From positions 1,302,001 to 1,366,000 of the forward strand of contig NC_020156.1 in the NCBI RefSeq assembly GCF_000332115.1: a DNA stretch of 64,000 bases, read 5' to 3'. Shown here piece after piece: positions 1,885 through 62,605 of the stretch. The position numbers and the translations under genes were made by a program. Below the pieces are notes generated by a model. It was not told the DNA's origin. It searched no databases and saw nothing but the letters and a program-made list of their open reading frames with translations. The DNA is from Nonlabens dokdonensis DSW-6. GTDB lineage: Bacteria; Bacteroidota; Bacteroidia; Flavobacteriales; Flavobacteriaceae. Numbering within the stretch: the first letter of the stretch is position 1; each line of letters begins with the position of its first letter.

Positions 1885-1900
1885 CGCTTTCGCGAAAGCG
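1885..1900. repeat. CGCTTTCGCGAAAGCG palindrome, copy 1 (intergenic)
   Basis: Perfect 16-base palindrome, 30 bases after the XRE gene. No T-run follows, so it is not a standard terminator. Confidence 0.95.
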
Positions 1901-1961
1901 GAAACTTCATACATTTTAAACAGGTAAAACATCCAGACTTCAGTAATTAGAAAAAAGCATT

Positions 1962-1978
1962 TTAGACAAAAAGTCTAA
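1962..1978. promoter_or_regulatory. inverted repeat upstream of the ankyrin gene
   Basis: TTAGAC-AAAAA-GTCTAA is a perfect 6+6 dyad with a 5-base spacer, about 110 bases before the ankyrin gene. The half-site and spacer geometry resemble the 6-5-6 dyads at 546-594, but the half-site sequence differs. A regulator binding site is possible; a small hairpin is the alternative. Confidence 0.35.
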
Positions 1979-2089
1979 CTGGGTTCTAAAACGATTACGA
2001 TAGTTGTATGAAGAGCAATAAAAATCCATCAACTAAATTCCAAAAGGTTTTAAACGATAGTGTTATATTAGCAATTCTTAAAACCTAAA

Positions 2090-2518
2090 ATGATGAAAAA
2101 AGTTCTTTTAATTCTCGCTTTAATTGTTGCTGGAACGGCGACTGCTCAAGACCTAACTAGAGAGATGACTATCGCACTGAAAAATGATAGCCCTAGAGAC
2201 CTTGAAGTTTTAATTAATGATGCTAACAAAAACGAATGTTTTCAAGCTGGAACAAGAAAATCAACCCTTTTACAATTGGCCGTTCAAATGAATAGCGGTG
2301 ATGTTATCGCGTATTTGGTTGATCGAGCAAAAGTTGATGTTGACCAAGCGTGCAACGACAACACACCACTCATGTGGGCTGCAAAAATGGGCAGAGCAAA
2401 TACAATTGAATTATTGCTTGAGGCTGGTGCAGATAAATCAACTAAAGTTGATGGTAAAACTGCTTTAGATCTAGCTATTGCAAATGGTAATCAAAGATCT
2501 ATCGAATTATTAAAATAA
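2090..2518 (+). CDS. secreted ankyrin-repeat protein
   Basis: This 142-residue protein starts with a signal peptide (MMKKVLLILALIVAGTATAQ, cleavage likely after the Ala-Thr-Ala). The mature part has about three ankyrin repeats, for example the unit around NTPLMWAAKMGRANTIELLLEAGAD followed by DGKTALDLAIANG. Ankyrin repeats mediate protein-protein contacts; no enzymatic domain is present. The protein probably acts in the periplasm. Two adjacent ATGs (2090 and 2093) are both possible starts. A strong terminator follows at 2565-2594, so it looks monocistronic. Confidence 0.85.
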   Translation: MMKKVLLILALIVAGTATAQDLTREMTIALKNDSPRDLEVLINDANKNECFQAGTRKSTLLQLAVQMNSGDVIAYLVDRAKVDVDQACNDNTPLMWAAKMGRANTIELLLEAGADKSTKVDGKTALDLAIANGNQRSIELLK

Positions 2519-2564
2519 AATGACAAGTGGCTAATTAACAGTCATTGTCATAAATTACATACAT

Positions 2565-2594
2565 AGCCTGCAAATTCATTTTTGCAGGCTTTTT
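2565..2594 (+). terminator. Rho-independent terminator after the ankyrin gene
   Basis: AGCCTGCAAA pairs perfectly with TTTGCAGGCT around a 6-base loop, followed by a T-run. Confidence 0.85.
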
Positions 2595-2726
2595 ATATGT
2601 AGATTTTATAGGAAATTGATCTTTACTAAAAGAGTATACCTTTGTCAAGTTTGATTTGTTTCATTATCATGTGAAAGGATACTGACATCAGTTAGCTTGA
2701 TTGTAGCTATCAATAAATAAACGTAT

Positions 2727-2760
2727 AAAAAAAGTCTCCATCATAAGATGAAGACTTTTT
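2727..2760 (-). terminator. terminator of the atpD-atpC transcript
   Basis: AAGTCTCCATC (2732-2742) pairs with GATGAAGACTT (2747-2757) with one G-U and a 4-base loop. The A-run at 2727-2733 gives a U-tract when read on the minus strand, just after the atpC stop. Confidence 0.8.
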
Positions 2761-2785
2761 GTAGTATTGGTTTGTAATTAAAAGC

Positions 2786-3135: not shown

Positions 3136-4659
<1,524 letters not shown>

Positions 4660-4817: not shown

Positions 4818-4833
4818 CGCTTTCGCGAAAGCG
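4818..4833. repeat. CGCTTTCGCGAAAGCG palindrome, copy 2 (intergenic)
   Basis: Perfect 16-base palindrome between the glmS terminator and the atpD start. Confidence 0.95.
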
Positions 4834-4838
4834 TAAAT

Positions 4839-4870: not shown

Positions 4871-4895
4871 AATTATCTAATTATATGAATAGGTA

Positions 4896-8405: not shown

Positions 8406-8408
8406 TTT

Positions 8409-10609: not shown

Positions 10610-11593
10610 TTGAAAAAAACATTTTTCAAGATACTGAAAATTACCCTACCATTACTTTTGGGTGTTTTTATCATTTATTACTCTTACAATCAGTTTACTG
10701 AAGATCAAATAGAAGAAATTAGATCTTACATTTTAACTGCAGATTACAAGTGGGTTTTCTTAAGTGTTTTCTTAGCTTTTTTAAGCCACCTCTCGAGAGC
10801 ATGGCGATGGAATTATATGCTACAGGCAATGAGCTATAAACCGTCGTTTTTAACTAACATCATAGCTATAGGCGCTGGCTATGCTATGAATATTTTTATA
10901 CCTCGCAGTGGTGAAGTTGCTCGTGCTGCTATCATCAATAGATCAGATCAAGTCCCTATGGATAAGGCTCTAGGAACAATAATCGCAGAGCGTGTTCTTG
11001 ATGTAATTATGCTTTTACTCATCACAGCAACAGCTGTTTTAAGCGCTGGAAATGCTATTATTGATTTTTTCAAGAATAATTTAGATTCCGCTTTCGCGAA
11101 AGCGGATACCTCAAAACTTCTTCTCTATTTAGGAATAGTTATACTACTGGTAGTTCTACTAATTTTCATTGCAAAAAAGGTACAACTCTTAGGTAAGATC
11201 AAAGGGTTTTTACATGGTATGAAGGAAGGCTTTATGACCATCTGGACCATGAAGAAAAAATGGCTGTACTTACTTCACACTCTTTTTATTTGGGGTATGT
11301 ATGTAACGATGTTTTATGTCACTATTTATGCCATTCCTGGAATTGCCAGCATGCCAGTAAGTGCGATTTTGTGTGCATTTGTTGCCGGTAGTTTTGCGGT
11401 AGCTTTTACAAACGGTGGTTTCGGCGCATATCCCTATTTCATAGCACAAGTGCTGCTCATATTTGGTATAGAAGAAACTTTGGGCTCTTCTTTTGGGTGG
11501 TTGTTATGGCTGTCTCAAACTTCATTAGTACTAGTTTATGGTCTAGTGTCATTAGTATTATTAGCACTGAGAGGTAGTCTTTCAAGGAATTAA
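10610..11593 (+). CDS. lysylphosphatidylglycerol synthase TM-domain (flippase-like) protein
   Basis: This 327-residue polytopic membrane protein belongs to the UPF0104/LPG_synthase_TM group: a cytosolic N-terminus, HLSRAWRWNYML, IPRSGEVARAAII and later FTNGGFGAYPYFIA. Only the transmembrane flippase-like part is present, without the catalytic aminoacyl-transfer domain of MprF, so a lipid-linked transport role is more likely than lysyl transfer. Translation probably starts at TTG 10610, 3 bases after panD; no ATG is nearby upstream. A palindrome copy (11089-11104) encodes SAFAKAD in a loop between membrane segments. Confidence 0.85.
   Translation: MKKTFFKILKITLPLLLGVFIIYYSYNQFTEDQIEEIRSYILTADYKWVFLSVFLAFLSHLSRAWRWNYMLQAMSYKPSFLTNIIAIGAGYAMNIFIPRSGEVARAAIINRSDQVPMDKALGTIIAERVLDVIMLLLITATAVLSAGNAIIDFFKNNLDSAFAKADTSKLLLYLGIVILLVVLLIFIAKKVQLLGKIKGFLHGMKEGFMTIWTMKKKWLYLLHTLFIWGMYVTMFYVTIYAIPGIASMPVSAILCAFVAGSFAVAFTNGGFGAYPYFIAQVLLIFGIEETLGSSFGWLLWLSQTSLVLVYGLVSLVLLALRGSLSRN
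11089..11104. repeat. CGCTTTCGCGAAAGCG palindrome, copy 3 (coding, AFAKA)
   Basis: Perfect copy inside the flippase-like gene, read as SAFAKAD in a non-membrane loop. Confidence 0.95.
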
Positions 11594-12800: not shown

Positions 12801-14171
12801 ATGGCCAAAATAAAAACGACTTGGTTTTGTCAGAATTGTGGAGCGCAACATTCTAAATGGCAAGGTCAGTGTTCTTCATGTAAAGAATGGAACACACTAG
12901 TAGAAGAAGTCGTACAAAAGGAAGTTAAAAAATCATGGGAAAGTGCTGTTAGTGATGTTCCGCTTTCGCGAAAGCGTGCACCACAACCACAATTAATTTC
13001 TAAAATAAACACCACCGAAAGTCCACGGTTAGATACCACAAATGCAGAATTTAACCGAGTATTAGGTGGCGGCTTAGTTCCTGGATCTATCTCTCTTTTA
13101 GGAGGTGAACCTGGTATAGGAAAATCAACATTGTTGCTACAAGTCTGTCTCAATTTACCCTATAAAACACTTTACGTATCTGGAGAAGAAAGCGCACAAC
13201 AAATCAAAATGCGAGCAGATCGTATTAAAAAAGACGCGGTCAATTGCTACATTCTTACCGAGACAAAAACTCAAAACATTTTCAGGCAAATTACAGAAGT
13301 AGAGCCAGATGTATTGATCATTGATTCTATACAAACCCTACAAACTGATCATATAGAAAGCTCGCCAGGAAGCGTTTCTCAAATAAGAGAATGCACTAGT
13401 GAATTGATCAAATTTGCCAAAGAAGCTAATACACCTGTTCTCCTTATAGGTCACATTACCAAAGATGGTAACATTGCTGGACCCAAGATTCTAGAACATA
13501 TGGTAGACACGGTTTTACAATTTGAAGGAGATCGCAACCATACCTATCGGATTCTAAGAGCGTTGAAAAACCGTTTCGGTAGTACGCATGAAATAGGAAT
13601 TTATGAAATGCTAGGTCATGGATTAAGGGAAGTGATGAACCCTAGCGAGATATTAATTTCTCAACGTGGTGCCAACTTAAGTGGTACGGCTATAGCTGCG
13701 ACTATGGAAGGTATGCGACCGTTGATGATAGAAGTTCAAGCACTTGTGAGCACGGCTGTTTATGGAACGCCTCAACGCAGTGCAACTGGTTACAATCTTA
13801 AGAGGCTTAATATGATTCTAGCAGTTCTTGAAAAAAGGGCTGGATTTAAACTAGGTCAAAAAGATGTCTTTCTCAATATTACTGGTGGAATCACCGTCGA
13901 TGATCCAGCAATAGATCTTGCCGTAGTTGCTGCTATTTTATCTTCTAACTTTGATATAGAATTATCTTCTCAGCATTGTTTTAGTGCAGAGGTAGGTCTA
14001 GGAGGCGAGATACGACCTGTAAGTCGCATGGAACAACGAGTGAATGAAGTAGCAAAATTAGGTTTTGACAAAGTATTCATCGCTCCAGGAAAACAAAACT
14101 TCAAAAATCTAGGAACAGAAGTGCAAGCCTTTTCCAAAATTGAAGATTTAGTAAGATATTTGTTTTCTTAA
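12801..14171 (+). CDS. radA: DNA repair protein RadA/Sms
   Basis: RadA is a RecA-like ATPase that drives branch migration in recombinational repair. In order: a C4 zinc finger (CQNCGAQHSKWQGQCSSCKEW, residues 10-30), a Walker A at about residue 97 (GGEPGIGKSTLLLQ), the RadA KNRFGSTHEIGIYEM motif, and the Lon-like C-terminal domain (FLNITGGITVDDPAIDLAV). The length of 456 is normal. A palindrome copy (12961-12976) encodes PLSRKRAP in the linker between finger and ATPase. A hexanucleotide repeat tract follows the stop. Confidence 0.98.
   Translation: MAKIKTTWFCQNCGAQHSKWQGQCSSCKEWNTLVEEVVQKEVKKSWESAVSDVPLSRKRAPQPQLISKINTTESPRLDTTNAEFNRVLGGGLVPGSISLLGGEPGIGKSTLLLQVCLNLPYKTLYVSGEESAQQIKMRADRIKKDAVNCYILTETKTQNIFRQITEVEPDVLIIDSIQTLQTDHIESSPGSVSQIRECTSELIKFAKEANTPVLLIGHITKDGNIAGPKILEHMVDTVLQFEGDRNHTYRILRALKNRFGSTHEIGIYEMLGHGLREVMNPSEILISQRGANLSGTAIAATMEGMRPLMIEVQALVSTAVYGTPQRSATGYNLKRLNMILAVLEKRAGFKLGQKDVFLNITGGITVDDPAIDLAVVAAILSSNFDIELSSQHCFSAEVGLGGEIRPVSRMEQRVNEVAKLGFDKVFIAPGKQNFKNLGTEVQAFSKIEDLVRYLFS
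12961..12976. repeat. CGCTTTCGCGAAAGCG palindrome, copy 4 (coding, LSRKR)
   Basis: Perfect copy in radA, read in the LSRKR frame, in the linker after the zinc finger. Confidence 0.95.
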
Positions 14172-17164: not shown

Positions 17165-20100
17165 TTAGAAAAAAGCCTTTAACTGCACATTGCCGGTATG
17201 GACTGTTCTTGCGGTTTCACTGCTGCGGCCGCTGTAACTAAGATTGAGATCTAGAAATTTGGTAATGTTTTTTTGATACAAAAAATTCCAAGTAAAGTTA
17301 GTTCCTGGCTGCAATCCTTCTAGCATTTGAAAACCAACTGGAGAAAAGGCTTGGCCTTCAAAATCGTTTTTTACATACTTGATCTCTCCATTTATCGCAT
17401 ATTTTTGTGATTTATTAAAAGCCCAAAGGATTCCAATGTTTTGCTGGCTTAAAGTAGCAATTTCATTAAGCTGATTCTCCTTGTTTTGATATTCGTAAAA
17501 CAATTCTAGTCTATTGCTATTATCAAAAAGATAAGAGATTTGAGGCCTTAAAAGAAGGTCTTCTATTTCAAAATTACGATTGGTAAAATTTTCACTTGTA
17601 CTTGCATTGAGACCAGTCTGGGCGTTCATAGTAACCAGCCAGGTATCTCTTATTTTATGTAAAAATCGCAACTGATGACTTTTTATTTCGTTAGAAATAC
17701 TTCCTATACTTTGTAGATTTTCATTTGCAGTACTGAGATAGGTATAATTAGTTGTGAAAAATTGCTTGCCTCGGTTAAAGAATAAACTGTTTCTAAAACT
17801 TGAGTTTAATCCTAATTGATTATCACTACTTGCAAATGGATTGATACTAAAGTTCTCTCCTTCTCGCTCTACCATCCTGTCGATTAAATAACTCGTCTGG
17901 TTATAAAACTTAGAAAGTACTTTTTTATAACCAGTTTCTTTAGACCAAGAAATGGGGTTGAGTGTCAGCGTTTGAGAAAACTTATTTTGGTGGGTAGGCA
18001 GGAAAACTTGATTAGGCAATAAGATCCTCACAAAACTCGCTTGATCCTGAAATTGTGCCACTTCAAATTCGTTGAGATCCTGAATCCCATCATCATTATA
18101 ATCAATCCATGTAAATGTTCCCTGACCTGGATTAACCGCCACATAAGTAAAATCCTGTCTAGGAATACGAGCACTATTAGTTTCATAAGTGGTATTCCAT
18201 AAAATTTTACCTCCGTAAATTTTACGCTTGTATTGAATCCTAGAGTTAAAAGAAACTTCATCTTCAAAGCCTTCTAACTCGCTTTTTAGCTTTCTATAGT
18301 TAGCATAAACACGCAAATTACTCACCTTATTTTTAATGGGTTGTGACCTGATGTAGTAATTATTTGAAGAATTTACACGCACAAGATCTCCATCTCGCAA
18401 GCTATCATTCACTCGATGTCTATAACCCAACTCCACAAAAGTCGTGGTTGTATCACCTCGACCAGCATATACTTCATAACTAGCAAACTTTTGGGACAAT
18501 CCTGTAAATTCGTCGGTAGCGGTGATTTTTTGCTGGTTGTTCTCACTTTCTATTCTCGCGCCAGTGTAATATTTATTTATTTTTCTAAGCACATCGGCAT
18601 TTAACCTACTGAAATCTGATTCTTGATCTAAGGATTTCGTGGTTAGTACGCTTCCGCGAAAGCGAGCCTGCCATAAACTATCTTGATAAATTCCTGCCAA
18701 TACATGTCTATTACCTCTGTAGAAATCGGTGAACTCTAAATGTTCAAAATTGTACGAAGTAGTAAGTGTGGAGTCTTTTACATAATTAAGTCCTAAAGTG
18801 GTGAATAACTGGCTGCCTTGAGTGGTGTCAATATTCCAATCTCGATTAAATTCTATGTTATACACACGTTCTACATTCCTGAAGTCTTCTTGAATGTAAT
18901 CCATATTTACGGTCGCATTTAAGGATTGAAGTGTATCTTTTTTAAGCAACTCTTGTTGTACGGCAAGTTTTACAGCGACGCCTTTGTTGTCATCGTCATC
19001 GATACTAGAAAACTTATTTAAATCCTTATTACTGGCAGCAAGCTCTGTATTAATAGTAGTTGTAGTAGTAGGTTGATAACTGGCTTTGAGTCCTGCTATC
19101 GTAAGAATTTCTGGGGTAAACAATTGTATTACTGGATCATAACTTCCTTTCGGGACGCCATTTATAGGAGCCACGTACTCGTAAATATTAGAAATAGCCT
19201 GATCGTTTACTAATCGGTAATTTCCTTGATTAGCGCCTAGAAACGAAAACCTAACATTAAAAAGCTGCGCGGTTCTATCTTGTGAAAACACAAAAACTTC
19301 TTCGCCATTAATAATTTCCCTTTCGTATAATATTTGGTTTTCTGAAAACTCGCTAGGGACAGCGCTAGGAGCAATCGCTTGATCAAGATCATCTCCTGCA
19401 TCTACTAGAATTGCTACCTGATCTTCATTTAAATTTTGTTGTAGCGGCTGGTTTTTGGCATCGGTCTCTGTATAAATATAAGAATCAACTTTTATTTTTT
19501 TAGATTCAAAACCGCCAGTCCCATAACCGATGAATCTGGTAAAATTACGCTCGCTGTATTGATATTCAATAGAAATACGCATCTCACTAGTTATAGGAAA
19601 AGTAGGCGTAAAACGAACCTCACCAGCATTATAATCAATAACATAATCTTGATTCTCACCACGTCTTAAAGGAACACCATTTACATAAACGCGCTCACTT
19701 CCAGAAACTATCAGAATGAACAACTCACCATTCTGCCCGGTTAATTTATACGGTCCTTGATTGCCTTCTATACCTGTAAACCTACTTATATTAAAGGTTC
19801 CTCTTACTAGAGCGCCTGCTGCACCGGCATATCCTGAAGAGTCACCACCATCAAATCGTACTGCACCTGATATTCCTTGAACACGTTTTGTAAAATTATT
19901 GAACTGATAATCATTTTGTGTTAAATCTACATCTCCAGCTCGTATGTTCCAGTCATCGCTAAAAAGCTCAATGAATATTTGATCAAATTCATCTAGTCTT
20001 TGCGAGTAACCATTTTGAGTTTGTGGGACGTTTGCATCTTGAATAGAAGCACGTAAAGAAACACGATCACTAAGTTTACCAGTGATTCTCAGGTCCAGTT

Positions 20101-22121: not shown

Positions 22122-22137
22122 CGCTTTCGCGAAAGCG
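22122..22137. repeat. CGCTTTCGCGAAAGCG palindrome, copy 6 (intergenic)
   Basis: Perfect copy in the accB-accC spacer. Confidence 0.95.
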
Positions 22138-28488: not shown

Positions 28489-29343
28489 TTATAATAAATC
28501 TTTAAAAGTAAATGTTTTATCTAGTCGCACACCTTTTTCTGTATGCTTTACAGTGATAATCTCATTATAAGGATCATGCTCGAGTATCAAGTAGTAGCCT
28601 TTAGTTGCGGCTTCATTTAAGAATTTTTCTTTCTCTCCTAATGTAAGTAGTGGTCTCGTATCATAGCCCATAACATAAGGAAGTGGAATATGTCCTGCTG
28701 TAGGAAGCAAATCTGCCATGTAGACAAAGGTTTTACCGTCTATATGTATATGAGGAATCATCATTTTTTCTGTATGACCATCTACAAATAGAATGTCAAA
28801 GTCCATTTCGTTTTGCTTCTCATAAGAACTGTTTTGAGAAATAAACTTCAATTGACCACTTTCTTCAATAGGATTGATATTTTCCTTAAGAAAACTTGCT
28901 TTCTCACGAGCGTTAGGCTCGGTAGCCCATTTCCAGTGACTTGAGTTGGTATGGATTTCCGCTTTCGCGAAAGCGGGCTCATAAAAATCTCCTTTACTAC
29001 TTTTTTGAATCACTCCACCGCAATGGTCAAAGTGCAAATGCGTTAAAAAGACGTCTGTGATATCATCACGAGAAAAACCTTTTTCTTTCAAAGAGCTATC
29101 AAGATCGTATTTATGATCCATGTAGTAGTATCCAAAAAATTTCTCTGACTGTTTCTTTCCCATCCCAGTATCCAGTAGCGTCAATCGATCTCTGTTTTCA
29201 ATGAGCAGGCATCTAGCTGCCATATCTATCATGTTGTTAGAATCGGCAGGATTAGTGCGTGTCCAAAGAGATTTAGGCACAACTCCAAACATGGCACCAC
29301 CATCTAGTTTAAAATTTCCAGCTTCTATAGAATGTATTTTCAT
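28489..29343 (-). CDS. metallo-beta-lactamase-fold hydrolase
   Basis: The 284-residue protein has the MBL zinc motif LTHLHFDHCGG (HxHxDH), the preceding TLLDTGMGKK strand and later HTEKMMIPHI and LEHDPYNEI metal-ligand regions. The overall plan matches the AHL lactonase-like subgroup, but quorum-quenching activity cannot be claimed. There is no signal peptide, so it is cytosolic. A palindrome copy (28960-28975) encodes EPAFAKAEIHT in a surface loop. Likely cotranscribed with the S8 protease gene 18 bases downstream. Confidence 0.88.
   Translation of the reverse strand: MKIHSIEAGNFKLDGGAMFGVVPKSLWTRTNPADSNNMIDMAARCLLIENRDRLTLLDTGMGKKQSEKFFGYYYMDHKYDLDSSLKEKGFSRDDITDVFLTHLHFDHCGGVIQKSSKGDFYEPAFAKAEIHTNSSHWKWATEPNAREKASFLKENINPIEESGQLKFISQNSSYEKQNEMDFDILFVDGHTEKMMIPHIHIDGKTFVYMADLLPTAGHIPLPYVMGYDTRPLLTLGEKEKFLNEAATKGYYLILEHDPYNEIITVKHTEKGVRLDKTFTFKDLL
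28960..28975. repeat. CGCTTTCGCGAAAGCG palindrome, copy 7 (coding, AFAKA)
   Basis: Perfect copy in the MBL hydrolase gene, read as AFAKA. Confidence 0.95.
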
Positions 29344-33199: not shown

Positions 33200-33214
33200 C
33201 GCTTTCGCGAAAGC
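33200..33214. repeat. CGCTTTCGCGAAAGC palindrome, copy 9 (intergenic)
   Basis: The 14-base core is perfect; the outer right G is replaced by A. It follows the MATE gene. Confidence 0.92.
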
Positions 33215-33255
33215 AATAAGAAACAGGAACCTACCACAAACATCTTCTTAAATAC

Positions 33256-44004: not shown

Positions 44005-46914
44005 TTACTTTCTTTTAGTTGTTAAAGGATCTAATTCATAACCAGTTTGCTTCCCTTTTCTATCTCTAGATAAGCCATTTGTCATCCATACTGGAGCTGG
44101 TGCGCCTTTAAGATAATGATCGAAGAACTGCATCATTCTTATAGATAAATCCCTTCTATTTTTAGTTTCTCTTAGGTTGTGAGCCTCGTCATTATAAACA
44201 AGCAACCAAGACGGTTTTCCTAATCTACGCATTCCCATGAACATTTCTATACCTTGATAATAGGGTACGGCACCATCTGCATCATTATGCATCATGAGCA
44301 GCGGTGTTTCTATTTTAGGAATATGAAACAAAGGCGAGTTCTCTATATACAAATCCAGTCCTTCCCATAGGTTTTTACCTATTCTAGTTTGCGTTTTTTC
44401 ATATTGAAAAGCACGGCTTAAACCGCTTCCCCAGCGTATACCACCATAAGCGCTAGTCATATTTGAAACTGGTGCGCCCGCCATAGCCGCAGCATATTTA
44501 TTGGTACGTGTTACTAAATAAGCGGTTTGATAACCACCCCAACTTTGACCTTGTAAAGCCATTTTAGTGGAATCTACATATCCTAATTTTTCCACAGCTT
44601 CGGTTCCAGAAACGATGCAATTGTAAGCACTTTCTCCAGGATGTCCGTCTTTATACACGACATCTGGTACAAAAACCACATAATCATTACTAGCTAGGTA
44701 GGCAAAATTCACCGTACTCGCACTAGGCAAAGGAGATCGGTAACTATGAAGTCTATCGGCATATTTTTCATAGAAATAAACAATCATTGGGTACTTTTTG
44801 TTAGGATCAAAATTAGCGGGCTTGTAAATAAGCCCTTCTAATGGAACCTCATCGTAAGCTTTCCATTCAAACAATTCTACCGTTCCCCATTTGAAATCTT
44901 CCTCCTGCGGATTGATATCCGTAAGTGGTTTTTTAAGTTTTGGAGTCACGTATTCTATATCTGGGTAATCTTGAAAATTTCCTGATGTGATCAATAAAGC
45001 GTCTGCGTTTTCCGCTTTCGCGAAAGCGGTAACATTACGATCGCTCACCTCATATAACGGCCCTATTCCATTTGCACCAAGTAACATTAAAGAGTTTGCT
45101 TTTGTACGATGATCAAAGGCTGAGAGCAATAACTTATTATTAAAATAGGTAGCAAGGTCACGGTTTTCTCTATCGAGTGTTTCTGTGCGATAGGTGATCT
45201 TGTTTTTACGACCTGATTGAGTCATATTAACAGGTGTAGCTTCTCCGGTAGGATCCAGCTTCCAGATATCATATTTATCATATACGAGAGCAAATCCATC
45301 TTTATCAAAGCCTCCAAATCCATGTGCATTTGCTAGCGATGGATGATCGTCATCTTCGTCTGCAAAGCTTACATCTAAGAATTTAGTGAGGTTCTTACCT
45401 ATTTGAGTTTCTAAATTCATCATATGCCAATCTTGGGTATCAAAATTGAAATAAATCACGTGCGTATTTTCTGGATTTCTTATAGGCGAACTTCCAGAAT
45501 TGTTGATGATAAATTTTTTACTACGCGTCTTTAGGTTTTCTACCAGATAGTCAGATCTCCAAGGATAATCCCATGACCTTGCTATGTCATATTTATCGTT
45601 GTTTGCATAAATAACATAATTGCCTTCCATATCATCGTCCCAATCGGTATCTCTCATATCATAATCATTGAAAAACTGAATAGATTCTTTTTCAGTATCC
45701 CAGATAATAGTTGAGGATTGTCTTTCTAAACTAGAAATACGAGTCTTTTGTTCTGGTTGTGTCATGCGATCTTTATAATTCCAGACGTCCACTTGAGCAA
45801 TCTCGTCATCCATTAAAGTTGTGTCTATGGTGTATTCAATTTTGGGTTGTGTGTAAAACATCAAGCGTTTTCCATTTTCAGAAAATCGTGCTTTTCTTTT
45901 ATCAGTAAGTGTCCAGCCATTTTTGATGTTTCCTTCTCCGTAGGCCAGTTGTCTTGTAAAAGCATCTTTATCTTTTTGATAATACAGTTCGTATTTTAAA
46001 GAATCAATTTCTGTACTGTCCATGGCGACTTTGTAAGCAAGCTGTTTACCGTACTTATCTATAGAAAGATCTTTGTACCGCCATGCGGTTTCTAATAAAG
46101 TTGTTGAGGTCCTACTGGTAGCATCATAGTAGTAAACGCCATGATCCTTTTTCTTTTTTCCCTGCTCTCGAGAATAAATAAAACCATTTCCTTCACGTGG
46201 CATTTGATAATCTTTAAAACTATCAATGCTGTCTTTTGCTTTGGTTGCAGGTAGGTATACAATCAAATAATCATCTTCAGTATAATCTACTTTTTCAACT
46301 TCTTCTTTTGAGTTTTCTTTTTCTTCTTTGGCCTTTTTTTCTGCTTCCTCCTTTTCTCTTTTTAATCGGCGTCTTTTTTCTCTTTTAGTTTCTTTTAAAG
46401 GTTCTTCTGCTTTTATTTCAGTAGTATCTTTTTTCTTTTCAGGTTTGAGGTCTTTGTACTTTTCTAGAATAAGAAATTCGTTGCGTTTATCACTAGCGGT
46501 ATATTTTTTTACTCGTTGTATAGAATCTATAATAGTTCCACTGGCCACTTCATAAACCATAAAGGTGTTTTTGGATTGCTTGGCTTTATCTACTTCGTCT
46601 TTTTTCTCTTTGCGTAGTTCTTCATATTCTGGTTTTTGAAGAAAATAGATATATTTCTCATCGGCACTTATTTGTGGATCGATACCGTTTAAGAACGTGT
46701 GTTTTGTATCACCAGATATATTGTGAATTTCTAAATAGCCGTTACCAGCACCAGTAGATGTGACTACACTTATGGCAACTAGATTACCACTTGGGGAGAT
46801 TTCCCTGCTTGCAGCGCGCTTCCATAAGTCGTAGTCATTATGAGTAAGCGCTCTTTTTTGCCCAAAAGTTGTAAAACAAATACTTAAAACGAAGAAGTAG
46901 AGAAGGTTTTTCAT
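44005..46914 (-). CDS. S9 family prolyl oligopeptidase-like peptidase
   Basis: The 969-residue exported protein (signal LYFFVLSICFTTFGQ) has an N-terminal propeller-like domain and a C-terminal alpha/beta hydrolase with catalytic Ser at about residue 791 (ALQGQSWGGYQTAYL), Asp in MHNDADGAVPYYQ and His in NDEAHNLRE. This makes it a periplasmic or surface dipeptidyl/oligopeptidase. An insertion near residues 165-210 is extremely charged (runs of Glu, Lys, Arg, e.g. KREKRRRLKREKEEAEKK), probably coiled coil. A palindrome copy encodes VTAFAKAENAD in the propeller. Confidence 0.93.
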   Translation of the reverse strand: MKNLLYFFVLSICFTTFGQKRALTHNDYDLWKRAASREISPSGNLVAISVVTSTGAGNGYLEIHNISGDTKHTFLNGIDPQISADEKYIYFLQKPEYEELRKEKKDEVDKAKQSKNTFMVYEVASGTIIDSIQRVKKYTASDKRNEFLILEKYKDLKPEKKKDTTEIKAEEPLKETKREKRRRLKREKEEAEKKAKEEKENSKEEVEKVDYTEDDYLIVYLPATKAKDSIDSFKDYQMPREGNGFIYSREQGKKKKDHGVYYYDATSRTSTTLLETAWRYKDLSIDKYGKQLAYKVAMDSTEIDSLKYELYYQKDKDAFTRQLAYGEGNIKNGWTLTDKRKARFSENGKRLMFYTQPKIEYTIDTTLMDDEIAQVDVWNYKDRMTQPEQKTRISSLERQSSTIIWDTEKESIQFFNDYDMRDTDWDDDMEGNYVIYANNDKYDIARSWDYPWRSDYLVENLKTRSKKFIINNSGSSPIRNPENTHVIYFNFDTQDWHMMNLETQIGKNLTKFLDVSFADEDDDHPSLANAHGFGGFDKDGFALVYDKYDIWKLDPTGEATPVNMTQSGRKNKITYRTETLDRENRDLATYFNNKLLLSAFDHRTKANSLMLLGANGIGPLYEVSDRNVTAFAKAENADALLITSGNFQDYPDIEYVTPKLKKPLTDINPQEEDFKWGTVELFEWKAYDEVPLEGLIYKPANFDPNKKYPMIVYFYEKYADRLHSYRSPLPSASTVNFAYLASNDYVVFVPDVVYKDGHPGESAYNCIVSGTEAVEKLGYVDSTKMALQGQSWGGYQTAYLVTRTNKYAAAMAGAPVSNMTSAYGGIRWGSGLSRAFQYEKTQTRIGKNLWEGLDLYIENSPLFHIPKIETPLLMMHNDADGAVPYYQGIEMFMGMRRLGKPSWLLVYNDEAHNLRETKNRRDLSIRMMQFFDHYLKGAPAPVWMTNGLSRDRKGKQTGYELDPLTTKRK
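45013..45028. repeat. CGCTTTCGCGAAAGCG palindrome, copy 11 (coding, AFAKA)
   Basis: Perfect copy in the S9 peptidase gene, read as AFAKA. Confidence 0.95.
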
Positions 46915-48041: not shown

Positions 48042-48615
48042 AGTTTTATGGATTTTTATTGTTCTCGCTTTCGCGAAAGCGGAATACACAATAGCACAAT
48101 CAACTCAAAAAATAGAGCGCGAGGAAAAAATATCGAAAGCGCTATTTCCAAAAAATGCCATAACGTTTGTGGAAACCATAGGAAATTCAAGAAAAAAAGT
48201 GAATTTCTATCGAGAAACTGATGGCGACAAGATCAGTTATGAGGCCAAATTAAAATATCAAAATCGTAAGTACAGTATTGAATTTGACGCAAATGGAACA
48301 TTAGAAGATGTAGAAATAGATGTGCGTAAAAGAAAAATCAATAAAGCATCTTTTGCTCAAATAGAGCAATATCTAGACACTATCGCTAGAAAATACCGCA
48401 TCGAGAAAGTCCAAGAGCAATACGTTGGAAAAAATAAAACGGCTCCCCAAATTGCAGATAAAATTGCACAAAAAAGTGTAGACAATTATGAAATCATCGT
48501 CGCCTTTAAAAACAATAGGAAGATTTACCGCCGGGAATATCTCTTTGATAAAAACGGAAACTTTATAAGTAAACGTGACATTAAAAGACAGGAATATGAT
48601 TTCATTTTATTCTAG
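48031..48615 (+). CDS. exported protein with PepSY-like repeats, unknown function
   Basis: The 194-residue protein has a signal peptide (RYKVLWIFIVLAFAKAEYTIAQ) whose AFAKA is encoded by palindrome copy 12. The mature part is a lysine-rich alpha/beta protein; YEAKLKYQNRKYSIEFDANGTLEDVEID resembles the strand-turn-strand pattern of PepSY-like domains and appears again in diverged form (NYEIIVAFKNNRKIYRREYLFDKNG). The family call is tentative. It starts 11 bases before the tag stop and overlaps the DUF2490-like gene by 20 bases, so the last two are probably a working pair. Confidence 0.7.
   Translation: MRYKVLWIFIVLAFAKAEYTIAQSTQKIEREEKISKALFPKNAITFVETIGNSRKKVNFYRETDGDKISYEAKLKYQNRKYSIEFDANGTLEDVEIDVRKRKINKASFAQIEQYLDTIARKYRIEKVQEQYVGKNKTAPQIADKIAQKSVDNYEIIVAFKNNRKIYRREYLFDKNGNFISKRDIKRQEYDFILF
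48066..48081. repeat. CGCTTTCGCGAAAGCG palindrome, copy 12 (coding, signal peptide AFAKA)
   Basis: Perfect copy in the signal-peptide cleavage region of the PepSY-like protein. Confidence 0.95.
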
Positions 48616-50809: not shown

Positions 50810-51303
50810 TGAGAAAAGTATTGTTTTTCATAACCGCTGTGATTTTTATCTCTTGTGACGATCAGCTGGTCAGTGCAGAGTATAAAGACATGCCTACTTC
50901 AGGCTGGGCGATAGAAGATGTCGCTACTTTTCAAATTGAACCACAGGACACAATTAATAAATATGATATTTTTATTAATTTGCGTAATACCCATGAATAT
51001 GAGTACAATAACCTTTGGTTGATCTCTCAGATAAAATTTCCACAAGGAAAAGTCGTTACAGATACATTACAGTATCAAATGGCAGCACCAGACGGGAAGT
51101 TTTTAGGAAAAGGTTCTAACGATGTGTTTGAAAATAAACTATGGTTGCGAGAAGGTATTCGCTTTCGCGAAAGCGGAAACTACCAGCTAGCACTAAAACA
51201 CGCCATGAGAAAAAACGGAGAAGTAAACGGAGATGCACAATTAAAAGGTATTCTCAACGTAGGATATAGTATAGAAAAACAATTACACGATGGCAGCAAC
51301 TAA
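50809..51303 (+). CDS. gldH: gliding motility lipoprotein GldH
   Basis: GldH is a lipoprotein of the gliding/T9SS system in the outer membrane. The 164-residue protein starts at GTG 50809 (overlapping the PSP1 stop by one base) and has the lipobox VIFISCDDQ (Cys16), then the GldH core with DIFINLRNTHEYEYNNLWL, DTLQYQMAAPDGKFLG and a C-terminal KHAMR segment. A palindrome copy encodes IRFRESGNY at a family-conserved position. It overlaps PBP1A by 14 bases. Its presence supports gliding or T9SS function, though no other gld genes lie nearby. Confidence 0.9.
   Translation: MRKVLFFITAVIFISCDDQLVSAEYKDMPTSGWAIEDVATFQIEPQDTINKYDIFINLRNTHEYEYNNLWLISQIKFPQGKVVTDTLQYQMAAPDGKFLGKGSNDVFENKLWLREGIRFRESGNYQLALKHAMRKNGEVNGDAQLKGILNVGYSIEKQLHDGSN
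51160..51175. repeat. CGCTTTCGCGAAAGCG palindrome, copy 13 (coding, RFRES)
   Basis: Perfect copy in gldH, read as RFRES. Confidence 0.95.
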
Positions 51304-54363: not shown

Positions 54364-56038
54364 TATCATTGCCTCCATAAAAGGTCTCAACGTCTCTTTT
54401 TCAAATGGGAAACAAAAGACTCAAGTATTGCATGATATCAACTTTGATATTTTTCAAAATGAAATACTAGCCGTAGTTGGAGAATCTGGTAGTGGTAAGT
54501 CGGTTACTAGTAAGGCTTTGATGGGTTTGTTACCTGTTAAAGCAGCTAACATCAACGCCCAGGAACTCACTTTACTAGGAAGAGACTTATTAAAAGTGAG
54601 AGGTTCGGACTGGTCTCGCTTTCGCGGAAGCGAGATAAGCATGATCTTTCAAGAACCTATGAGCTCTCTCAACCCTACTATCACCTGCGGGAAACAAGTA
54701 ATTGAGGTATTGCAACAACATCAATCAATAAGTAATGTAGCGGCTAGAAAAGAAGTATTGCGACTGTTTGAAAAAGTAAAACTTCCTATTCCTGAAACAA
54801 CATTTGATAAATTTCCTCACGAGATAAGTGGTGGACAAATGCAACGTGTTATGATAGCGATGGCAATCGCTTGTAAACCTAAATTACTCATTGCAGATGA
54901 GCCTACGACTGCTCTTGATGTCACAGTGCAAAAGGAAATTATTAACCTGCTTAAAGAATTACAAGAAGAATATGGAATGAGTATTCTTTTTATTTCACAT
55001 GATTTATCCTTGGTAAAGTCTATTGCAGATCGCATTCTAGTCATGTATCAAGGTAGAATTGTGGAGCAAGGAGAAAGTGAAGTAGTTTTTGAATCGCCTA
55101 AAGAACTGTATACGAGAGCGCTGATAGCTTCCAGACCTAGTACAACTGTAAGAGTCAAAAAGCTGCCTACTATCTCAGATTTTATAGAAGGTACGGTAGA
55201 AGATGAAGTTATCACGCCTACCACTCGTAAAGAACTGCATACCGTGATTTATAATCAAGAGCCTTTATTAGAAGTAAAAGAAGTTGTCAAGGATTTTAAG
55301 CTTAAGAAAGGGATTTTTGAAAAGCAACAATTCTTTAGAGCAGTAGATCGAGTTAGTTTTGACTTATTTGCTGGCGAGAGCTTAGGATTAGTAGGAGAAA
55401 GTGGATGCGGTAAAAGTACATTAGGCAACCTCATCTTACGACTTATTGATACTACCAGCGGAAACATTATTTACCGTAACCGTGATATTACTCATCTAAA
55501 AGGTAAAGAATTACGCGAGCTGCGAAAAGAGATTCAAATTATCTTTCAAGATCCATTTGCTTCTTTGAATCCGAGATTAACGGTAGGACAAGCTATTATC
55601 GAGCCTATGAAATGGCATGGAATAGGAAAAAATAACGCCCATAGAAAAGAGAAAGTCCTTCATCTTCTTAAACGAGTAGGACTTACAGAGGAACATTATA
55701 ATAGATATCCTCATGAATTTAGTGGTGGTCAAAGACAGCGTATAGGAATCGCAAGAACGGTCGCTTTAGAGCCTAAATTAATTGTATGTGATGAAAGTGT
55801 GAGTGCACTTGATATATCAGTTCAAGCACAGGTTTTGAATTTGCTCAATGAATTTAAAGCAGATTTTGGATTCTCTTATTTATTTATCTCTCACGACCTG
55901 GCTGTTGTAAAATACTTTTGCGATCAAGTCATCGTCATGAACAAAGGGAAAATAGAAGAAAAAAATGAAGCCGATGCTTTGTATGCAAATCCGCAAAGTG
56001 ACTATACCAAGAAATTGATTGCCGCTATTCCTGAGTGA
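54338..56038 (+). CDS. fused double ABC ATPase, dipeptide/oligopeptide-importer type
   Basis: The 566-residue protein is a fusion of two Opp/Dpp-type ATPases. Domain 1: Walker A GESGSGKSVTS, signature ISGGQMQRVMIA, Walker B LLIADEPTTALD. Domain 2: GESGCGKST, FSGGQRQRIGIAR, LIVCDESVSALD. The 1-1.5 kb around shows no permease or substrate-binding gene, so it is an orphan ATPase pair; its membrane partner must be elsewhere. The start ATGATG (54338/54341) lies inside the exonuclease gene. An imperfect palindrome copy (54617-54632) encodes RFRGS just before EISMIFQEP. Confidence 0.93.
   Translation: MMTRSSQNNIIASIKGLNVSFSNGKQKTQVLHDINFDIFQNEILAVVGESGSGKSVTSKALMGLLPVKAANINAQELTLLGRDLLKVRGSDWSRFRGSEISMIFQEPMSSLNPTITCGKQVIEVLQQHQSISNVAARKEVLRLFEKVKLPIPETTFDKFPHEISGGQMQRVMIAMAIACKPKLLIADEPTTALDVTVQKEIINLLKELQEEYGMSILFISHDLSLVKSIADRILVMYQGRIVEQGESEVVFESPKELYTRALIASRPSTTVRVKKLPTISDFIEGTVEDEVITPTTRKELHTVIYNQEPLLEVKEVVKDFKLKKGIFEKQQFFRAVDRVSFDLFAGESLGLVGESGCGKSTLGNLILRLIDTTSGNIIYRNRDITHLKGKELRELRKEIQIIFQDPFASLNPRLTVGQAIIEPMKWHGIGKNNAHRKEKVLHLLKRVGLTEEHYNRYPHEFSGGQRQRIGIARTVALEPKLIVCDESVSALDISVQAQVLNLLNEFKADFGFSYLFISHDLAVVKYFCDQVIVMNKGKIEEKNEADALYANPQSDYTKKLIAAIPE
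54617..54632. repeat. palindrome copy 14, one substitution (coding, RFRGS)
   Basis: CGCTTTCGCGGAAGCG. The substitution changes the Glu codon to Gly, which matches the conserved RG of Opp-type ATPases. Confidence 0.85.
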
Positions 56039-59280: not shown

Positions 59281-60069
59281 CTAATCAAATAGCCCTATGA
59301 CATCAACAGGTAACTGTGCGTGCCATTCTTTGCCATAGTTCCTATTGAGAAAAAGAGCTACATGGTAATTGTGTTGTTTTGCTTTCGCGAAAGCGAGATC
59401 ATTTAAATCACCAGTCATGAATTGAAAGTCTATATCATATCTAGTCGAAAATGCCTTTACCTGTTTTGGATTTATAAATTCAGTAGCGTAGCAATAGAAA
59501 AACGACTTTTTTGGTTCTTCTTTAGCTGGCTTGTTTTGAATATTTTCAAAAGACGCTGAGGCTAAAAATGCAAATTGATCCTTTTTAGATATGATAGTAT
59601 TGTATTCTAATTTACAGTATTCATTATCACAAAATTGAGCTTTGTAAAGGTCATTGTGCTTGTTACTTTTTGTTGATAAATCTAACTTATAAATGGAACC
59701 TATTTTGGGTGTAACATCTATCATTATTTTGGGAGATGCGTGGCTTTTTACAAGCTGATGCATATAAATAACTTGATGGATGGCTGCATTTTCTGGTGAG
59801 TTCTTTTTTTCAATAATTATAATGGGAAAAGGAACACCTACCACATATTCATTTTTACCTTTTACAGCAATGTAGTTGTTTTTTTGATCAATAATCGCAT
59901 GAATTTCTTTAAGTACATGACCATCTCTAGGAAGGTAGGACAAGTTGTAAACATCAAATTCCTCAATAGAAAAATGCAATTCAAAAGAAAAGGCACCTGA
60001 AGAAGATGCCTGACCTTGAACCGTCCAAGAGTAAAAAAATAGTGCTGATAAAAGAAAAAGATATTTCAC
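59281..60069 (-). CDS. exported protein of unknown function
   Basis: The 262-residue protein has a signal peptide (KYLFLLSALFFYSWTVQGQ) and a beta-rich mature part with FSFELHFSIEEFDVYNLSYL and ISKKDQFAFLASASF segments. No family recognised. Palindrome copy 15 encodes NDLAFAKAKQHNYH near the C-terminus, a helix-like stretch where the insertion seems tolerated. It lies 82 bases upstream of mutS on the same strand, which is likely coincidental. Confidence in coding is good because of the signal peptide and codon use like its neighbours. Confidence 0.6.
   Translation of the reverse strand: MKYLFLLSALFFYSWTVQGQASSSGAFSFELHFSIEEFDVYNLSYLPRDGHVLKEIHAIIDQKNNYIAVKGKNEYVVGVPFPIIIIEKKNSPENAAIHQVIYMHQLVKSHASPKIMIDVTPKIGSIYKLDLSTKSNKHNDLYKAQFCDNEYCKLEYNTIISKKDQFAFLASASFENIQNKPAKEEPKKSFFYCYATEFINPKQVKAFSTRYDIDFQFMTGDLNDLAFAKAKQHNYHVALFLNRNYGKEWHAQLPVDVIGLFD
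59381..59395. repeat. GCTTTCGCGAAAGCG palindrome, copy 15 (coding, AFAKA)
   Basis: The 14-base core is perfect; the left outer C is T. Read as LAFAKAK in the 262-residue exported protein. Confidence 0.92.
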
Positions 60070-60151
60070 TTATATATTTTAAATATGGTTCCTGATTTAG
60101 TTTATAAAACAAATCGCTCAGTGTCCTTAAAAAGTAACACTATTTCACTGT

Positions 60152-61327
60152 TTAATCCCACGTATATTCTTTTGAGCTAGACTGTTTTTTAATCGCTTGA
60201 AACATGGCAGACTCTAAACCGTTAGACTCACTTAGTGATTGTGTTTTAATATAGTTATCTCTCTTTTTATTAAGTTCTTGAATCTTGTTCTGTATTAAGG
60301 TTCGTTCTTGTTTTTTTGCTTTCGCGAAAGCGGTAATCTCCTTCATACTTTTATTACGCAAACTATCTGGTAACGTAGCTAGATTCTCTGATTTGAAAAA
60401 GCCTTCTCTCATTTCCTCATCTTCCATAGCATCTACAAGATCCCAAGTGGAGTTGCGGTAGTTTGAAGAAGATTTTGCTACGCTGCGTTTCACATTTGCC
60501 TGAATAGAAGCTTCCTGAACCATTTCATCCATTTCTACTTGAGCCATTTTTTTATCTTCACCTTGACGGCCGTAATACACATAGGTATTATTTAGTTTTT
60601 TATTCCATTCTAGAATTTCGTCGTCATAAGGAGTTGCTACATAGGTCGATTTTTGATTGTGATCTAGATTCATATATTCACCTTTTCCTAGAACGGCTCC
60701 TTCTTTCCAGCGTAATTGCGTTCCTGTATTCCAGTCGCCACAAAAAATGGTGTTTACGGTGACGTCTTTTTCAATTGCTTGTGCGATACTGGAAGAAAAC
60801 GGCACAGAGCCTTGATTAAAACCTTCGTTACCTGCTATAAAAATCATTTTTAAGTCGTTTTTTCCATCCTTCCATTCTAATTTTTTCAACGACTTATCGA
60901 TAACAGTACCGCAGTATTCCTCGCCGCCATTAGTTCTCAAACTAAACAGCTCTTTACTGATCAAGTCTAGGTCTGTAGAAAAGGAAAGCACCTCGCGTAC
61001 AAAACCGTCGTTAGCACTTAAACGGCTGTTCCCATATTCGTAAATAGCAATTTCTAATAATGCTTGTTGATCGTTGCATTGTGCACTCGACATTTTATTG
61101 ACGATATCCCATAACTGAGTTTTAGCCTGATCGATGAGTCCGTCCATACTATTGCTGGTATCTAGCAATAAAGCTATTTGTATAGTTGCAGGTTTTGTGT
61201 TCGCTATAATTACCGGCGCCTCAATGAATTCATCAATTATTGCGACTTGGTTTTGCGGAGTATTTCCTTTGCAAGAAAGAAATGCTGCGATGCTCAATGA
61301 TAGAGCTAGAGTTTTTAAATTTTTCAT
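60152..61327 (-). CDS. von Willebrand factor A domain lipoprotein
   Basis: The 391-residue protein has a lipoprotein signal (LSLSIAAFLSCKGNTP, Cys19) and a VWA domain with the MIDAS motif LLLDTSNSMDGL (DxSxS) at about residue 55, the later GGEEYCGTVID threonine/serine region and MIFIAGNEGF. VWA domains bind protein ligands through a metal. The C-terminal 120 residues are a helical charged coiled coil (AFAKAKKQERTLIQNKIQELNKK), in which AFAKA comes from palindrome copy 16. It is exported and of unknown partner. Confidence 0.87.
   Translation of the reverse strand: MKNLKTLALSLSIAAFLSCKGNTPQNQVAIIDEFIEAPVIIANTKPATIQIALLLDTSNSMDGLIDQAKTQLWDIVNKMSSAQCNDQQALLEIAIYEYGNSRLSANDGFVREVLSFSTDLDLISKELFSLRTNGGEEYCGTVIDKSLKKLEWKDGKNDLKMIFIAGNEGFNQGSVPFSSSIAQAIEKDVTVNTIFCGDWNTGTQLRWKEGAVLGKGEYMNLDHNQKSTYVATPYDDEILEWNKKLNNTYVYYGRQGEDKKMAQVEMDEMVQEASIQANVKRSVAKSSSNYRNSTWDLVDAMEDEEMREGFFKSENLATLPDSLRNKSMKEITAFAKAKKQERTLIQNKIQELNKKRDNYIKTQSLSESNGLESAMFQAIKKQSSSKEYTWD
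60318..60332. repeat. GCTTTCGCGAAAGCG palindrome, copy 16 (coding, AFAKA)
   Basis: The 14-base core is perfect; the left outer base is T. Read as TAFAKAKK in the VWA lipoprotein. Confidence 0.92.
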
Positions 61328-61354
61328 GATGTTTTATTTAATACAACCGTAAAA

Positions 61355-61422
61355 CCCTTTTGGTTGCTCGATCAGCTTTGCTGACCTCGTCGCCAACCTG
61401 TTTTCCCTTTAAAAAAGGGAAA
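61355..61422. repeat. hairpin-rich REP-like spacer
   Basis: The 127-base gap between the VWA and SIMPL-like genes contains CAG-CTTTG-CTG and TTTCCCTTT-AAA-AAAGGGAAA (61402-61422) pairings. It may terminate the SIMPL-like transcript, but no long T-run follows. Confidence 0.45.
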
Positions 61423-61454
61423 GGCTTTTACTTTGTATAATTCTTGATTTATTT

Positions 61455-62486
61455 TTAATTATTAGGTATTTGTTTGATATCTATAGGGCCATTTGGACTT
61501 ACTACATACACTTTAGGATCAGGAGTTTTTACTGGAGCAGGTTTTGGTTCTGGTTTTTTCTCAATTGGTTTTAAGTTGTATTGTAAGCTTAGATCCATTC
61601 CTAACTGAATAACAGGCTTTGTGATTGCTGCGTTTACTACGATGTCATAACCGTTGTACGGGATAGGGTCATAATAATATGATGTGGGCTTTCTAACAGA
61701 GGTTACATTTTTCTGATTTTTAAGAGATTCCATGCTTATGTTTTCTGCAGCGAGGTAGCTTTTGTAAAAATCTTTAGGTGTGTGGTAATATTTTTTGTCG
61801 GCCATCATGACATTGTAGTCTTCCATTTTAAAACCTAGTTTCTCGTAGTAGGCTTTCTTTTTAGATACTTCTTCAAGAAGTTTATTTTGAAGATTTTCAT
61901 AAATAGCTTCTAGGTTTTTTACATAATAATCCACTTTTACCAGGTTGTAAACCTCGGCTTTACCACAAGCGGTAAGGATTTTTTGAAAATCACTGTCTTT
62001 CTTGTAACTGATCAAGAGGTTTTGCTGCAATTCAAAACCTACAGGAACTTCGGTATATGTTTTAGAGAATAGCTTTTTAGTAACTTCTATTTCATATTGC
62101 GGGACAAAGGATATCATGTCTAAAGAGAACTGTCCTTGAAAACCGTTGCTTTTCAGGTCTTTCTTTACGATCTCGATTTTATCGTTCATCAGTTTTGTAG
62201 TTTCCTCAGCAGTTTTACCTACTTGAACGATATTAAAAACAGCCGTATAATCTGTTGCGTCTACATTGTACAAAGACCTCAGCTTTATTTGTAGCACATT
62301 GCTAGGTTGTAGATTAACGTATTGTTGCGCATATTGATTTCCATAAGCAGCGCCGTTTCCCATGCTGGTCGCAATATTTGCTCTAGAAATATCCATATCG
62401 GCAACCTTACTATTAAAGTTACCCATGTGTTGTGCGCTCATTACTAGAGCTGTGCACATTAAAATTGACGTGATGATCTTTTTCAT
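61455..62486 (-). CDS. SIMPL/DUF541-like exported protein
   Basis: I place the start at 62486 (MKKIITSILMCTALVMSAQ, signal peptide, 343 residues). The frame opens at 62618 but its first 44 residues overlap palindrome copy 17 and are unlike an exported protein start. The core (YTAVFNIVQVGKTAEETTKL, IEIVKKDLKSNGF and FVPQYEIEVTKKLFSKTYTE) resembles SIMPL/DUF541 domains: a beta-alpha fold following a signal peptide. The C-terminal end is a proline/lysine-rich tail (KKPEPKPAPVKTPDPK). Function unknown. Confidence 0.7.
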   Translation of the reverse strand: MKKIITSILMCTALVMSAQHMGNFNSKVADMDISRANIATSMGNGAAYGNQYAQQYVNLQPSNVLQIKLRSLYNVDATDYTAVFNIVQVGKTAEETTKLMNDKIEIVKKDLKSNGFQGQFSLDMISFVPQYEIEVTKKLFSKTYTEVPVGFELQQNLLISYKKDSDFQKILTACGKAEVYNLVKVDYYVKNLEAIYENLQNKLLEEVSKKKAYYEKLGFKMEDYNVMMADKKYYHTPKDFYKSYLAAENISMESLKNQKNVTSVRKPTSYYYDPIPYNGYDIVVNAAITKPVIQLGMDLSLQYNLKPIEKKPEPKPAPVKTPDPKVYVVSPNGPIDIKQIPNN

Positions 62487-62589
62487 TTTTCTTGATTTTG
62501 ATCCAAATCTATCTGGAATAAAAACGTATTGATAATAGAAATGAGTGAAACACAGTTTTGAATGAGTGAAAGAAGTGTGCTGGTGAGTC

Positions 62590-62605
62590 CGCTTTCGCGA
62601 AAGCG
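62590..62605. repeat. CGCTTTCGCGAAAGCG palindrome, copy 17 (intergenic)
   Basis: Perfect copy in the divergent gap between 62486 and 62686. Confidence 0.95.

Follow-up and report, generated by a model that had tools for sequence, protein, structure and literature searches.

The chromosomes of Nonlabens, Dokdonia and the genus g209 are dotted with strictly kept copies of a perfect 14-base palindrome, GCTTTCGCGAAAGC, which we examined starting from a 64-kb stretch of Nonlabens dokdonensis DSW-6 (the window; positions 1302001-1366000 of the single-contig, 3,914,632 bp genome, labelled G000). We infer that a sequence-specific machine shared by these lineages reads the motif. It may be a self-recognition sequence of palindromic form whose most likely use is DNA uptake in natural transformation, a reading to which we give a probability of about 0.4, and the main choice lies between such an uptake tag and a site of chromosome architecture, which is a close rival. 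What the original prediction had observed in the window was right but understated; the self-recognition reading, the asymmetric arms, the even spacing, the few genera that form no clade in a RadA tree and the spread on metal-resistance islands go beyond it. Our own labels for genomes (G), contigs (C) and loci (L) are used where they are needed.

An iterated palindrome in three genera

A scan of the window with the 16-base form of the motif, allowing up to three mismatches, found it at 17 places, all with at most one mismatch (Table 1). Fifteen of these were exact copies of the 14-mer and two carried a single substitution, at 18650 (GCTTCCGCGAAAGC) and 54618 (GCTTTCGCGGAAGC), which are the same variant on opposite strands. 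The scan thus reproduced the 17 copies originally predicted, 15 with an exact core and two substituted, and all 17 coordinates agreed, those given as 59381 and 60318 being the starts of the 14-mer where the first base of the 16-mer is T. Dinucleotide-preserving shuffles of the window gave a mean of 0.09 and a maximum of 1 for the 16-mer, and an expectation of 0.09-0.20 overall against the 17 observed, which bore out the claim that the 14-mer is far above random expectation. The whole genome held 857 exact copies, or one per 4.6 kb, and none of the reversed control word, so that a genome-wide count near the random expectation was not found and chance origin was ruled out. With 857 copies in 3,914,632 bp, the window is typical of the chromosome. 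Judged by the longest open reading frames (ORFs), 12 of the 17 sites were inside ORFs and five were intergenic; the predicted mixture of genic and intergenic sites therefore held, but not its split of 11 and six, a discrepancy that may be explained by a site lying 28 nt within the start of ORF 61455-62618.

The motif was found 288-787 times in each of the 22 other Nonlabens genomes drawn, 369-905 times in each of 18 Dokdonia genomes (the genus of G250) and 408 times in G234, the sole genome of genus g209. Among 397 Flavobacteriaceae genomes searched, hundreds of copies were present in four Nonlabens, G234 and G250 alone; the remaining 391 held 0-19 copies, with at least one in 74, often clustered in the places listed. 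No copies were observed in 23 genomes of Flavobacteriales outside Flavobacteriaceae, and Bacteroidota outside Flavobacteriaceae had at most one per genome (296 Bacteroidota genomes scanned). In a scan of named records, the matches listed (at least 80 rows) included 20 from Nonlabens, 31 from Dokdonia, four from 'Flavobacteria bacterium BBFL7' and 25 from records with other names, of which 24 had one copy each and one, L071, had two. In a RadA tree of 29 rows, with the site-bearing linker kept in the alignment, the motif genera did not form one clade and the motif changed twice; trees with one change made up 0% of 200 bootstraps. Massive over-representation in the host lineage with rarity or absence in relatives is also the pattern of the DNA uptake sequences (DUS) of Neisseriaceae and the uptake signal sequences (USS) of Pasteurellaceae.

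Two other words came to notice. In stretches L293-L298 and L371-L374 of G003, another 14-mer, CCTTTAGCGGAAGC, together with its complement, was found 17 times in 192 kb, having surfaced there only through being three mismatches from GCTTTCGCGAAAGC. In stretches L379-L380 of G145, TTTCAGAAAA-like words were over-represented, with 11 in 40 kb.

Table 1. Copies of the palindrome in the window, with their gene context and their state in related genomes.
Site	Position	Sequence	Context	Relatives
1	1885..1900	exact 16-mer	intergenic between ORFs 1142-1642 and 2090-2518	
2	4818..4833	exact	intergenic, after glmS (4896-6743, -)	present in G006, G003 despite diverged flanks
3	11089..11104	exact	in ORF 10610-11593 (LPG_synthase_TM)	kept in G004, G006, G003, G016; one substitution in G009
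4	12961..12976	exact	in radA (12801-14171), variable linker	same place in 18/20 Nonlabens RadA genes
5	18649..18664	one substitution (CTTCCGCGAAAG)	in ORF 17165-20572 (-)	variant conserved in G009, G004, G006
6	22122..22137	exact	intergenic between ORF 22192-22680 (-) and accC 20707-22056 (-)	
7	28960..28975	exact	in ORF 28489-29343 (-)	kept in G009, G004; one substitution in G006
8	29602..29617	exact	intergenic between diverging ORFs	kept in G009, G004, G006, G016
9	33200..33215	exact 14-mer (16-mer last base A)	intergenic after ORF 31838-33181	
10	38145..38160	exact	near start of ORF 36294-38201 (-)	
11	45013..45028	exact	in ORF 44005-46914 (-)	
12	48066..48081	exact	near start of ORF 48031-48615 (+)	kept in G006
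13	51160..51175	exact	in gldH (50809-51303)	kept in G009, G006
14	54617..54632	one substitution (site 5 variant, other strand)	in ORF 54338-56038	conserved in G009, G006
15	59380..59395	exact 14-mer (16-mer first base T)	in ORF 59281-60069 (-)	
16	60317..60332	exact 14-mer (16-mer first base T)	in ORF 60152-61327 (-)	kept in G009
17	62590..62605	exact	5' end of ORF 61455-62618 (-)	kept in G009, G006

Selection, arms and spacing of the site

Selection acts on the DNA word itself, regardless of gene or reading frame. A 464 kb sample of the own genome, composed of 20 evenly placed 20 kb stretches and the window with 7,488 bases masked, contained 98 exact, eight one-mismatch and three two-mismatch copies. 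By a simple ORF caller, 58 of the 98 exact sites were inside ORFs (88 expected) and 40 were outside (9.7 expected), an about 4-fold intergenic enrichment; genic placement with an intergenic excess is also found for DUS and USS. The genic sites used all three codon frames, read as AFAKA (36), RFRES (12) and LSRK (10). Among open frames of 90 codons or more in all six frames, some of which are therefore not genes, the peptide AFAK[AS] was encoded by the motif in 44/44 cases in the own genome, 25/26 in G003, 5/8 in G250 and 8/9 in G234, and it was absent from 520 kb of motif-poor genera. In the alignable DNA of five relatives, with unalignable sites left out, the core was retained in 22 of 27 comparisons from the own genome to a relative and in 22 of 22 reverse ones, which share sites and are not independent, compared with 2.8-7.5% of other aligned 14-mers. 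The radA linker, which varies in length, had the site in 18 of the 20 Nonlabens compared; the linker of G234 had a site gained independently, in another frame, and none was present in that of G250 or of six motif-poor genera compared.

All five lost cores differed by one or two substitutions, with no indels, and beyond the core and its nearest bases the flanks shared base composition alone. These observations bear on dispersed copies of a mobile or REP-like (repetitive extragenic palindromic) element, which would also yield many near-identical palindromes, some of them travelling on islands. REP elements and those tied to RAYT genes, for which no search was made, are extragenic inserted units, whereas the motif lies largely inside ORFs in both the window and the sample. 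We consider such an origin very improbable, and the genic sites, unshared flanks and substitution-only losses do not fit copies explained wholly by one mobile element family, the outcome that the original prediction had named as telling against it.

The usual extended form of the site was CGCTTTCGCGAAAGCG. Over eight genomes, the commonest single-base change was T5>C (10/38), which is also the change at window sites 5 and 14. At base -1, C made up about 90% of copies in the own genome, G003 and G250; the share in G234 was 60% of 15 copies. At base -2, the own genome had C or T and G250 mostly A (71% of 28 copies), a shift in sequence that suggests a dialect-like difference. The 5' arm avoided C over about 20-30 bases and, by symmetry, the 3' arm avoided G. 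In the own arms (n=196), C made up 3.1% at -10 to -4 and 16.1% at -40 to -31, and G was not reduced near the core (21.1% and 17.4%); the avoidance of C was the same in G009, G004, G003 and G250 and weaker in G234 (11.9% versus 26.0%). The loss of C was gradual toward the core over about 30 bases. This bias may be the footprint of a strand-specific C-to-T mutation process instead of selection or recognition. An extended hairpin was rejected, as the arms pair no more than their composition predicts, and three single-strand folds were unexceptional (z -0.42, -0.82 and -1.59).

The copies were also spaced more evenly than expected. For the first 100 listed places of the own genome, 98 gaps had a mean of 4,585 bp and a coefficient of variation (CV) of 0.42, which excludes one 91 kb gap and becomes 1.63 with it; the random expectation is about 1, and none of 20,000 random sets went below 0.695. 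Among the first listed places of other genomes, the CV was 0.69 on contig C4 of G003, 0.74 in G439 of the genus Dokdonia and 0.68 in G234, all below random (P at most 0.00075). Gaps shorter than 1 kb were too few, and short-range exclusion and evenness were observed in all four genomes. The 20 stretches held 0-7 copies per 20 kb with no visible trend along the chromosome, and no pattern relative to origin or terminus was seen. The motif-free 91 kb stretch, G000:C1:131678-222907, contains locus L263; its sampled part carried three giant genes, of which the one scanned encodes a nonribosomal peptide synthetase (NRPS) with condensation and AMP-binding domains.

Chromosome architecture, which the original prediction had already raised, stays a live rival close behind uptake by virtue of dyad symmetry and evenness. 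The site would be bound every 4-5 kb by a dimer of a lineage-specific nucleoid protein that anchors loops or constrains supercoils, a possibility to which the intergenic enrichment, the conserved positions and the footprint-like arm bias add. However, close relatives differ 1.8-fold in copy number (487 in G004 and 857 in G000, about 1.7-fold per Mb), nearly all other Flavobacteriaceae genera manage without the motif, no origin or terminus pattern was seen and no Noc-like ParB paralogue was found (below), and the C-free and G-free arms are left unexplained. We rate the architectural role as possible, at somewhat less than one chance in three.

Candidate readers

No reader protein was found among the families searched (ParB_N, PF00145, PF01555 and RecC). 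The sites of parS, Noc, SlmA and MatP are palindromes bound by chromosome proteins, like the motif in symmetry; unlike them, the motif has far more copies and showed no macrodomain bias. Each of six motif-rich genomes (the own genome, three other Nonlabens, G250 and G234) had a single ParB_N gene and no ParB/Noc paralogue, which ruled out a parS or Noc site in all six. No parS words were found near parB in 15 loci of about 3 kb, in motif-rich and motif-poor genomes alike, a result that is uninformative. The idea of an autoregulated reader gene beside close-set pairs of sites proved unproductive: of two such pairs, one adjoins cupin and nhaC-like genes and the other lies in hisB, as labelled by reading of the ORFs.

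The original prediction likened the motif to HIP1 (highly iterated palindrome 1, GCGATCGC) of cyanobacteria, and the 857 copies in and between genes confirmed a genome-wide iterated palindrome of that kind. Unlike HIP1, the motif is longer, occurs in few genera, has C-free and G-free arms and has no conserved methylase in the two families tested; the HIP1 octamer is not contained in GCTTTCGCGAAAGC. The suggestion that it is a modification motif was unsupported. C5-methylases (PF00145) had no match in G009, G015, G020 and G234, N6/N4-methylases (PF01555) had none in G009, G017, G004 and G250, and G009 had 563 motif copies without either family, so that a target of a conserved methylase of these types was rejected, neither family being present in all motif-rich genomes tested. 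We know of no methylase target as long as this exact 14-base core. Upkeep as the target of an orphan methyltransferase, which has been proposed for HIP1, would suit a palindrome that contains CGCG and TCGCGA, and the excerpted text of one paper links HIP1 to orphan methylases (PMC4390886); given the unconserved families (Dam-type, HsdM and Eco57I-type enzymes were not searched for), we hold this explanation to be quite improbable.

Known Chi sites are 5-8 nt long and directional. The motif would be a bidirectional Chi-like stop for an end-resection nuclease in recombination or repair if the 3' strand from either side became the invading end. This would agree with one site per 4.6 kb, with the C-poor (T/G-rich) strand running 5' to 3' into the core on both sides, and with its absence from two Nonlabens phages (below). 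Yet a palindrome is non-directional, some viral contigs carry the site, and the RecC family had no match in 15/15 genomes (AddAB was not searched for); we regard this role as unlikely. In density the motif does resemble Chi of E. coli, with 1008 copies in about 4.64 Mb according to the excerpted part of PMC1939737.

As a rule, the site is not an intrinsic terminator. None of the five sites of window positions 1-20000 was in the list of terminator-like structures, and a separate terminator-like hairpin lies beside site 2, at 4842-4870. T-runs (at least five T in eight bases) were present in five of the 80 strand tails (four forward, one reverse) that belong to 40 intergenic sites sampled from the own genome; the predicted lack of T-runs and of terminator activity therefore holds in general but not without exception.

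The 14-mer was in no paper of the open-licence literature searched. The ten papers containing the inner 10-mer do not concern the motif, and among the open-licence papers listed for Nonlabens, Dokdonia, Flavobacteriaceae or Bacteroidetes (in one case the best 12 of 54) none deals with it, both as judged by titles and the starts of abstracts; the available passages of three Dokdonia genome papers had nothing on it. One Dokdonia strain, D. donghaensis DSW-1, has been sequenced with PacBio (PMC4974333). A paper on uptake in Flavobacteriaceae counts short k-mers (table to 10) and, in the part available, does not name the 14-mer (PMC7965970). According to the excerpt of PMC5317091, an 18-nt palindrome of Caldithrix abyssi is similarly over-represented, with 14 conserved positions and an intergenic preference, but has 38 exact copies only and a strand-specific centre; 13 of the 38 overlap predicted coding sequences that its authors thought misannotated.

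Possible DNA uptake, mobile DNA and significance

We return to a self-recognition sequence for DNA uptake. Like DUS and USS, the motif has hundreds of near-exact copies in and between genes with an intergenic excess, is lineage-specific with a small dialect-like change, and is absent from two phages and one NRPS-bearing stretch. Nonlabens phages P12024S and P12024L held no exact copies in 71 kb, in which about 15 were expected at chromosomal density. Haemophilus USS carry A/T tracts, which the base-biased arms of the motif recall. The lineage-restricted copies, the base -2 dialect, the tolerance of ORFs, the independent gain in radA of G234, the absence from the phages and the 91 kb stretch, and the presence of ComEC in 15/15 genomes tested all suggest uptake, and the 1.8-fold change in copy number between close relatives fits drive better than a fixed structural need. 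Under this mechanism, the palindrome would mark the DNA of kin, and marked fragments would be preferentially taken up and recombined. Drive, together with selection for kin DNA, might in this way stock the core chromosome with roughly one site for each stretch of the size taken up (about 4-7 kb), as a fragment would gain nothing from having two. Being symmetric, the core would be readable from either strand or end, and bending or strand opening might be made easier by the C-poor arms. More tentatively, the whole may be put as a direction-free 14-bp self-recognition palindrome with C-free and G-free arms, placed every few kb, shared by marine flavobacterial genera that are not a clade in the RadA tree, and read by a protein, probably at uptake.

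Several observations weigh against an uptake role. Absence from viruses as a general rule was contradicted by copies on some viral contigs. A scan of viral contigs gave, among the matches listed, at least 80 loci with 85 copies, 14 of them the full 16-mer; at least four listed loci held two or three copies (L162, L176, L193 and L216), and at least three further contigs had copies in separate loci (L163/L180/L185, L147/L194 and L184/L188). These multi-copy contigs had 36-42% G+C and motif-typical arms; AT-rich viral contigs with the motif may represent phages or prophages whose hosts bear it, or else host sequence catalogued as viral, and many other listed matches, in G+C-rich contigs, look like chance. 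The odds of the readings are unmoved by the viral copies because these bear on all readings alike. ComEC was present in motif-poor genera too, and a ComEC tree (15 rows) neither showed nor rejected a joining of the motif genera (p-AU, from the approximately unbiased test, 0.217). No comparable motif of their own was found in 11 other Flavobacteriaceae genera, at 40 kb each and with two working positive controls. Low-copy relatives showed no significant excess of degenerate sites, the decay that lapsed maintenance would bring (12/166 in the own genome and G003 versus 14/96 in G009 and G004, p 0.084). No uptake receptor was found, and the available parts of the literature do not document competence in either Nonlabens or Dokdonia.

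Unlike DUS and USS, the motif is also palindromic, has a 14-base core and a lower density, is present on some viral contigs, and has an uptake role that is only putative. Frye et al. give thousands of DUS per Neisseriaceae genome in the excerpted part of their paper, above the density of the motif (PMC3630211). In the excerpts of Bakkali's paper (PMC1939737), the known uptake sequences (DUESs) are not palindromes and fall short of the evenness to be expected of compaction sites, features used there against intracellular roles such as compaction, and Karlin's finding of significant even spacing is reported. By these criteria, as excerpted, the motif leans toward an intracellular role.

Copies of the motif were also found on islands. 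In L071 (an Aquimarina record, 115-4401), two copies spaced 933 bp apart lay within an outer-membrane efflux gene adjoined by a multicopper-oxidase-like gene, as read from the ORFs. L398 (G259, 19-19314), with efflux, P-type ATPase and resistance-nodulation-division (RND) genes by Pfam, also had two copies 933 bp apart, and a 933-bp pair was present in the position lists of G145, G122, G131 and G204. This metal-resistance island in several Flavobacteriaceae genera probably originated in, or travelled by way of, a genus that bears the motif, and motif-bearing DNA seems to move out to genera without an abundant motif of their own. Separately, contigs G033:C18, G188:C2 and G365:C35 carried a ParB_N open frame of 616-626 aa in genomes holding six to nine motif copies, and in G033 this gene and all six copies were on one contig; these contigs are perhaps integrative elements.

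Every examined genome of three genera carries one exact 14-base word about 300-900 times, which makes this word a ready-made handle on a DNA-reading machine. A palindromic DNA uptake sequence, if true, would be a new class of genome-wide sign and, to our knowledge, the first such system in Bacteroidota. If architectural, the motif would describe a genome whose anchors are identical and set at fairly regular places. Our data on spacing touch the old Haemophilus question of why such words are evenly spaced. If the motif is an uptake tag, it would define a gene-exchange group in marine bacteria and would account for metal-resistance islands that bring the tag into other genera.

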